A DNA stretch of 64,000 bases from Chloroflexota bacterium (lineage in GTDB: Bacteria > Chloroflexota > Dehalococcoidia > Lucifugimonadales > Lucifugimonadaceae). Below the pieces are notes generated by a model that saw only the letters and a list, made by a program, of their open reading frames with translations, searched no databases and had not been told where the DNA came from. A program made the translations under genes and the position numbers. The DNA is taken from NCBI GenBank assembly GCA_018650845.1, contig JABIFF010000006.1, positions 1-64,000 of the forward strand. The letters are read 5' to 3'. Positions 28,223 through 28,636 of the stretch are shown in pieces (within the stretch, counting starts at the first letter, position 1; each line of letters opens with the position of its first letter).

Positions 28223-28516
28223 ATGCAACTTCTGATTACAGACGCAGCGAAAGAGTTCCTAAACGGTCGTGAACGACCTGTGGCGCTCGACTATCTCGCC
28301 GGACTCGGCTGAGGCGGTCACGCCTCGGTATCGGTCGATACCTACGCAAAGAAAGCCAACAAATCGGCTTACCAATTGGTCAAAGAAAAGGGCGTCGAGA
28401 TTCTCGTCTCGAAGAACCTTGCATCTAAAGCTGCAGCGATATTAGTTGAACAGAAAAAATTCTTGTTCTTCAAATGGATAACCGTAAGAGCCCAACTCTA
28501 CGGTCACGACACCTGA
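28223..28516 (+). CDS. HesB-like selenoprotein (UGA read as selenocysteine at residue 30)
   Basis: An ATG at 28223 opens a frame that meets TGA at 28310-28312 (codon 30), then continues without another stop for 67 codons to a TGA at 28514. Read through, the 97-residue product starts MQLLITDAAKEFL and has GLG-Sec-GG where HesB/IscA A-type carriers have GGGCSG, then GVEILVSKNL and FLFFKW, as in the HesB-like (seleno)protein family. It contains no cysteine at all. A SECIS-like hairpin with a GGTC loop starts 15 bases after the UGA. Likely an iron-sulfur or metal-handling protein. The alternative is a pseudogene, but the conserved position and hairpin argue against it. Confidence 0.78.
28327..28342 (+). 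promoter_or_regulatory. Bacterial SECIS-like hairpin
   Basis: GGTATC (28327-28332) and GATACC (28337-28342) form a perfect 6-base-pair stem with loop GGTC. The loop begins 21 bases after the UGA, within the range for bacterial SECIS elements, and GGUC matches the core of the Escherichia coli fdhF loop bound by SelB. A second perfect hairpin, GAGGCG/CGCCTC with loop GTCA (28311-28326), lies directly between the UGA and this one. Confidence 0.7.
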
Positions 28517-28561
28517 AGCCACGGATAACCATTTGGCCGTGAGCCGGATACAAGCAAACAA

Positions 28562-28600
28562 AAACAGCCCCGATTCCATTCTCAGGAATTGGGGCTGTTT
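28562..28600. terminator. Bidirectional intrinsic terminator
   Basis: AAACAGCCCCGATTCC (28562-28577) pairs with GGAATTGGGGCTGTTT (28585-28600), with one G-T pair. The T-run on the plus strand and the A-run at the left edge let it serve both the selenoprotein gene and the convergent membrane protein gene. Confidence 0.88.
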
Positions 28601-28636
28601 GATTATCAAGCTAAGTTCAATATTGAATGAACGCTC

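Follow-up and report, generated by a model that had tools for sequence, protein, structure and literature searches.

A short gene of Lucifugimonadaceae (Chloroflexota) probably encoding an IscA-like protein with two selenocysteines

Results

The locus

The window analysed here is a stretch of 64,000 nucleotides from a Chloroflexota bacterium of the Lucifugimonadaceae (GenBank assembly GCA_018650845.1, contig JABIFF010000006.1, positions 1 to 64,000 of the forward strand). The source genome is 2.48 Mb in 24 contigs and is 87% complete. The following features were assigned around a short frame interrupted by UGA.

28223..28528, plus strand: candidate gene of a double-selenocysteine (Sec) IscA-like protein; ATG start, 101 residues with predicted Sec30 and Sec98, stop TAA (from translation and the alignment of relatives)
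28310..28312, plus strand: first probable Sec codon UGA, codon 30, at about the place of the first conserved cysteine of IscA; TGA in 53 of 55 distinct genes
28327..28342, plus strand: candidate SECIS 1, GGUAUC-GGUC-GAUACC (from comparative pair counts and folding)
28514..28516, plus strand: second likely Sec codon UGA, codon 98, earlier read as a stop; TGA and a short histidine tail in 45 of 53 genes
28517..28525, plus strand: putative C-terminal tail Ser-His-Gly after Sec98; tail histidine in 50 of 50 genes with the TGA or Cys form
28526..28528, plus strand: probable real stop codon TAA (from comparison of relatives on reading on)
28531..28549, plus strand: candidate SECIS 2, AUUUGGC-CGUGA-GCCGGAU, beyond the stop, its loop 21 nt after UGA98; covariation across 45 genes
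28564..28598, no strand assigned: strong hairpin of 14 bp, with convergent reading frames on either side (28564-28604: -25.2 kcal/mol, z -6.0)

With TGA translated as Sec (U), the region 28223-28516 is a frame of 97 codons with a lone internal TGA, codon 30, in the context GLG-U-GG; it has no cysteine and is closed by a TGA. Everything that the initial annotation had listed as seen in this region, the translation as well as the hairpin, was found again. Its end at 28516 and its length of 97 residues are probably wrong, because the closing TGA probably is a second Sec codon with a hairpin of its own, the stop being TAA at 28526-28528. The product of 101 residues would end in ...YGHDT-U-SHG.

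Upstream there are two frames, one peptidase-like (DUF885) and one serine-hydrolase-like, that the window shares with ten further loci of the genus. The neighbours differ between clades and therefore the gene context gives no function. The hairpin at 28564-28598 probably is a two-way transcription terminator shared by the convergent frames. No tRNA gene was found within the window.

Distribution and sequence sets

The gene was observed in 19 of 60 relatives, the own genome included, and every copy has an in-frame TGA. A complete genome of the same genus (G013) contains it at 95% identity. Six of 19 genus members gave no match to the gene, though selB was found there. In a sample of the class, 27 of 393 genomes contain the gene, with one TGA inside each match. 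An order-wide search matched 85 of 250 genomes, with at least one internal TGA in each among the matches listed. In a phylum sample of 400 genomes, the family profile matched the own genome and G649, from which locus L095 comes; thus outside the class the gene is rare, this count of two including the own genome. A search of 400 phylum genomes with the NCBIfam model NF041239 gave three matches, all weak, and missed the own genome; this miss is uninformative, since the protein scan does match this model.

The genome collection contains 35 loci of the gene. The 55 distinct genes considered below are the deduplicated finds together with three loci from the NF041239 search of 400 phylum genomes; the set of 53 leaves out two cysteine forms, L093 and L094. 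Alignments A2 and A4 each consist of the window gene and 33 of the 35 genome-collection loci (L057 and L061, or L061 and L067, respectively, being left out). Alignment A3 contains 51 of the 53 genes, without L087 and L095, which have a one-codon shift, and A5 contains 49 of the 53, without L061, L065, L087 and L095.

The UGA at codon 30

Site 1 is TGA in 53 of the 55 distinct genes, the window's included, and Cys in two. The latter, L093 and L094, are distant NF041239-like forms reached through another search, that with NF041239, and have Cys-Cys at this site; L095 has Cys-Sec. In a rescan of the loci fetched for the order-wide search (genome G039 left out), all 90 matches have TGA at site 1. 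The codon persists in relatives with as little as about 31-40% protein identity. Random codons at position 30 in close relatives had been named as a test of the Sec assignment, and only TGA was found there.

Between the window gene and its closest relative, L010, codons 31-97 differ by 18 synonymous and 2 non-synonymous codons, and we conclude from these counts that this part evolves as a protein. In codons 1-29 there are 4 synonymous and 2 non-synonymous differences. The first part is less clear in more distant members of the genus, e.g. 6 synonymous and 9 non-synonymous differences in L020.

Downstream of UGA30 there is a perfect stem with a GGTC loop at 28327-28342, as claimed initially, the stem starting 14 nt and the loop 20 nt after the codon. 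The criteria for bacterial SECIS elements (bSECIS) given in PMC13188914 include a loop of 3-9 nt, a stem of 4-16 bp, a G in the first two loop bases, a loop position 16-37 nt after the UGA, and a minimum free energy of at most -7.5. SECIS 1 of the window lies within all these limits, including that on energy, in a 39-nt fold of -14.8 that includes a second small hairpin. The 51 nt from UGA30 on fold into two neighbouring small hairpins with -19.6 kcal/mol (z -3.6). Isolated SECIS 1 hairpins reach -7.5 in 37 of the 53 genes.

The Rfam scan of the window gave nothing at gathering scores, and thus the SECIS elements were judged by comparison. All six pairs of SECIS 1 are kept in 41 of 51 genes, compared with a mean of 5.0 and a maximum of 12 in 2000 replicates of a null with redrawn synonymous codons; as the genes are related, such shuffle figures are not to be taken as probabilities. 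By this comparison of sequences, the hairpin is kept at synonymous sites far too often for the null. At the third bases of Val36 and Asp39, the 53 genes have 43 G-C, seven A-U and two G-U pairs, and one A-C mismatch. Among 48 distinct rows, standard pairs make up 96.2% compared with 93.9% after shuffling, and there are 7 double-changed cells compared with 1.3. Double changes occur in two of the pairs, a number that is not unusual (126 of 500 shuffles). RNAalifold by itself proposes only four of the six pairs. Some genes have broken pairs, e.g. by replacement of Ser37 with Ala or Pro in six of 53.

One could imagine that UGA30 is a nonsense mutation in a broken gene, or that it is simply read through by the tryptophan tRNA or another near-cognate tRNA. 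This is scarcely credible given the retention of the codon in relatives as distant as those above, the predominance of synonymous changes, before as well as after it, among the nearest relatives, the selection acting on the downstream hairpin, and the Sec machinery of the same genome. Thus TGA at codon 30 very probably is a Sec codon, and short of an experiment its recoding is close to certain. The assignment as a selenoprotein with a SelB-type SECIS element, made initially for this codon, is supported by codon conservation, the hairpin and the Sec machinery.

Selenocysteine machinery

The presence of selA, selB, selC and selD in the genome had been proposed as a further test, and all four genes were found. 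The selA match scores 516.5 bits. That of selB, on the same contig as the gene, scores 329.8 bits, or 350.2 bits with its neighbour in the frame. It is located at 82675-84516 of this contig (C13), about 54 kb from the gene at 28223-28528; in the complete genome G013 of the same genus, the distance from selB to the gene is about 52 kb. The tRNA-Sec match (selC) scores 66.4 bits, and ARAGORN also calls a tRNA-SeC. There are two such matches on contig ends, at the end of L001 and at the start of L002, overlapping by 99 identical bases. As the contig ends share these bases, the two matches probably are one gene, and the assembly breaks at it. The selD match (L034, C21:78185-79111 of the own genome) scores 368.3 bits. 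This gene has an in-frame UGA of its own (ATCAG-U-AGK), followed by a hairpin with a GGUCU loop, and by this sequence pattern it encodes a Sec-containing selenophosphate synthetase.

The UGA at codon 98

The main addition to the initial annotation is that the TGA closing the 97-codon frame most likely encodes a second Sec and has a separate hairpin. Site 2 of the 53 genes is TGA with a histidine tail in 45, Cys in five, and neither in three (L026, L087, L095). In the 45 TGA forms the codon is followed by two to four further codons including His and then by a stop, TAA in 22 genes, TGA in 15 and TAG in eight. Cys stands exactly at site 2 in L064, L066, L078, L083 and L086, e.g. as PT-C-RH-stop. 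The tail histidine is encoded by CAC in 40 and CAT in 10 of the 50 genes with the TGA or Cys form. Both codons being used, it is the amino acid that is kept. The background of TGA with such a tail is 193 of 17,983 TGA triplets, counted in all frames of the loci fetched to that point, and none of the 53 genes has such a tail behind a TAA or TAG.

In the order-wide rescan, the 90 matches are divided into 38 with the TGA tail, one with Cys, 50 without a tail and one unclassified. The 38 consist of 37 classed as TGA-tail forms and L126, whose tail follows an extra TGA; its transfer reduced the forms without a tail from 51 to 50. These 50 end with TAA or TAG in 41 cases and with TGA in nine, so that a constant TGA is no general rule. 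A tree of 52 of the 53 genes (L065 left out) gives no count of changes at site 2.

SECIS 2 is a second candidate hairpin. In the 45 genes it is found 17-27 nt downstream of UGA98, at the real stop or past it. Its loop mostly begins with C-G-U, having G at position 2 in 44 of 45 genes and U at position 3 in all 45, figures to be read with the fact that the search itself allowed only G or U at the former and only U at the latter. The arms are paired in 249 of 270 cells, compared with 163 on average and at most 191 in 5000 shuffles of whole 3' arms. Single positions show G-C, C-G and A-U pairs, the stem sequence varying freely yet staying paired. The register was picked for each sequence; a mononucleotide-shuffle null with equal freedom gives five or six pairs in 3.1% of tries, compared with 42 of 45 genes observed. 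Among the five Cys forms, no candidate was found at the place of SECIS 2 in three; the candidates of the other two have three and four of six pairs. In L133, from the order-wide set, the loop is readable as GGUC on a seven-pair stem.

The energy of the isolated SECIS 2 of the window is -6.6 kcal/mol, above the limit of -7.5, its loop, stem and distance from the UGA lying within the bSECIS limits, and a longer 51-nt stretch containing it prefers another fold (-9.5). Isolated hairpins of this kind reach -7.5 in 33 of 45 genes.

This weakness of the window's SECIS 2 by itself would agree with a protein having a single Sec, in which only UGA30 is recoded, UGA98 is the stop, and the hairpin behind it is a weak terminator or a product of chance. 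The occurrence of site 1 alone in 50 of the 90 matches of the wider order points the same way, as does L026, where site 2 is TAG, followed by Pro-His-Gln and no near stop. We nevertheless consider it improbable. It accounts neither for the 45 genes with TGA, a short histidine tail and a stop, as against none with TAA or TAG before such a tail, nor for the endings of the tail-less forms of the wider order, mainly TAA or TAG. The five Cys forms, in which Cys stands exactly at site 2 and the hairpin is absent or poorly paired, also argue against it. Finally, the hairpin at 28564-28598, further on, is far stronger and terminator-like, and no T run follows SECIS 2. On these comparative grounds, the reading of the TGA at codon 98 as a second Sec codon is very likely.

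Several other endings were observed. L061 has an additional TGA before site 2, near residue 85, where a Trp is otherwise conserved; it may be a sequencing error, a mutation or a third recoded codon. L126 (genome G837) has the same combination of tail and extra TGA. In L161 (G780) and L165 (G776), both from the order, C-P-E directly precedes a TGA and a stop comes after two more codons; this TGA may encode a further C-terminal Sec, of the CxxU kind. In one family of the order, genomes G902, G903, G909, G919 and G920, the form with site 1 only occurs in neighbouring tandem copies (loci L138, L153, L137, L150 and L142, respectively).

Predicted fold and related families

AlphaFold2 models with Sec replaced by Cys have a mean pLDDT of 75 for the 97-residue form and 78 for the 101-residue form; residues 91-100 have 65 and residue 101 has 45. 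The top five Foldseek matches of both models are chains of HI1723, SufA and IscA, with SufA and IscA of E. coli among them (E 6e-4 to 4.4e-3, probability 1.00, TM-score by query 0.50-0.65). Only one match over both model searches has E<=0.001. Thus an IscA/SufA-like fold is predicted with moderate confidence.

The conserved cysteines of IscA are Cys35 and the C-terminal CxC. None of the three is present in the window protein, which has predicted Sec at two roughly corresponding places. The own genome encodes a canonical A-type carrier, L096, with the motifs GGGCSG and CGCG. A profile alignment to it sets Sec30 on the cysteine of GGGC-SG, with a poor score (E 0.077). Sec98 lies outside the aligned range, and in our own reading its position would be near the CGCG tail of the carrier. 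The Pfam model of A-type carriers, PF01521, does not match the window protein; it matches seven of the 49 A5 members at E<=1, the best E being 0.021. Hence the window protein resembles IscA and SufA in predicted fold, in the position of Sec30 at about the first conserved Cys and in that of Sec98 in the region of the CxC tail, but differs from them in the absence of cysteines, the histidine-containing tail and the failure to match PF01521.

The closest NCBIfam model is NF041239 (Moor_selen_rel), the CC/Se motif family (seleno)protein. The window protein matches it with E 2e-6 and scores 27.8-27.9 bits, the cut-off being 40. At E<=1 the model is matched by each of the 49 A5 members. Of nine proteins scanned singly, two exceed the cut-off, L026 (49.6 bits) and L024 (42.6 bits). 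The protein is a divergent relative of this family, below its cut-off, homologous over residues 1-88 and with Sec at the same place. However, it has Gly and not Cys just before Sec, and a second Sec at the C-terminus; the Cys that NF041239 has at -1 (CC/CU) or -3 (CxxU) is absent from G-L-G-U of the window. In Table 1 of PMC13188914, NF041239 appears as a 'hypothetical protein predicted in Moorella thermoacetica' with one Sec.

Membership in the HesB-like family TIGR01911, suggested initially as a check, did not hold, as this model has no match to the window protein at E<=10; NF038090 (IscA_HesB_Se) matches with E 0.1 only. In TIGR01911 Sec presumably lies near the place of the first IscA cysteine. 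The window protein, with its IscA-like predicted fold, is similar to TIGR01911 and NF038090 in having Sec near this place, but the UxGP motif, listed for HesB-like selenoproteins in PMC13188914, is UGGH here. The HesB/IscA-like assignment of the initial annotation therefore stands on the predicted fold and, weakly, on the place of Sec30 in the poorly scoring profile alignment, and fails on TIGR01911. Its interpretation as a whole is retained for the SelB-type selenoprotein and the predicted IscA-like fold, and is replaced in respect of TIGR01911, the C-terminus and the length.

Several double selenoproteins of other kinds are listed in PMC13188914, with Sec proposed as a metal ligand in some. 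The window protein shares with MbdU (NF045648), UXX-star (NF041114, NF041211) and KCU-star (NF033934) two Sec residues and/or, judging by the names, Sec near the C-terminus. These families, which we assume to have other folds, are absent from its three NCBIfam matches at E<=10, the presence of each model in the library being assumed. No match to NF049953 ('hypothetical protein DG', motif GUxG) was observed in the own genome, and the controls gave none either. A sequence search of PDB gave one weak match to a cytochrome construct (E 0.03), and Pfam gave matches to EpmC and Nitro_FeMo-Co below the cut-off; none of these is believed. Among the literature matches listed on HesB/IscA, SAR202 and Chloroflexi selenoproteins there is no description of a double-Sec IscA-like protein. 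The main text of the cultivation paper on Candidatus Lucifugimonas marina, PMC10444878, as available to us, contains no word beginning with 'selen'.

Overall, we consider it highly probable that this single gene encodes a double-selenocysteine protein of IscA/HesB-like fold, with Sec30 and Sec98.

Possible mechanism and function

Both UGA codons have a separate hairpin with a G-U loop, located 17-27 nt further on. Most genes of the close family retain UGA98; some relatives have Cys in its place, and in these its hairpin was not found. This suggests that SelB with Sec-tRNA(Sec) would bind SECIS 1, so that UGA30 is decoded. SECIS 2, which in the window belongs to the 3' untranslated region behind the real stop, would be bound next and lead to decoding of UGA98. 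Translation would then end at the TAA, four codons on from Sec98. Less certain is the idea that both selenols meet the histidines of the tail at the place where three cysteines hold the cluster in IscA, which would give a site for a soft metal or a metal cluster, or else a redox pair of the diselenide/selenolate type.

The predicted fold and the places of Sec30 and of the C-terminal Sec98 could also mean that the protein is a true A-type iron-sulphur carrier in the role of IscA or SufA, simply with Sec for Cys. This is unlikely: the window protein has neither Cys nor a CxC tail and is unmatched by PF01521, and a housekeeping role of this kind becomes less likely because the genome already has the canonical carrier L096 with GGGCSG and CGCG. 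Somewhat better, although still tentative, is a selenium version of the A-type carrier site, with Sec30, Sec98 and the tail His in place of the three cluster cysteines. Such a site might, equally tentatively, hold a soft metal (mercury, copper, silver) or a cluster of the iron-sulphur or iron-selenium type. Our cautious leaning as to the molecular function, drawn from sequence and model comparison, is thus towards a selenolate/histidine metal or cluster site, a redox pair being about as likely.

If the carrier-like selenium site is real, it is built by one short gene with one SECIS inside the frame and one beyond the stop. Gene finders stopping at UGA leave 29 codons of such a gene, and a program reading through one UGA still misses the C-terminal Sec. 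The data indicate that selenocysteine is used in the genus to which Candidatus Lucifugimonas marina, a cultured SAR202 bacterium, belongs. The clade of these bacteria is found throughout the ocean. With a cultured isolate having a complete genome, the double-Sec protein is open to testing.

A second homologue of A-type carriers, L097 (C5:182269-182568), was observed in the own genome. It lacks the first cysteine and ends with a long Gly/Cys-rich tail.
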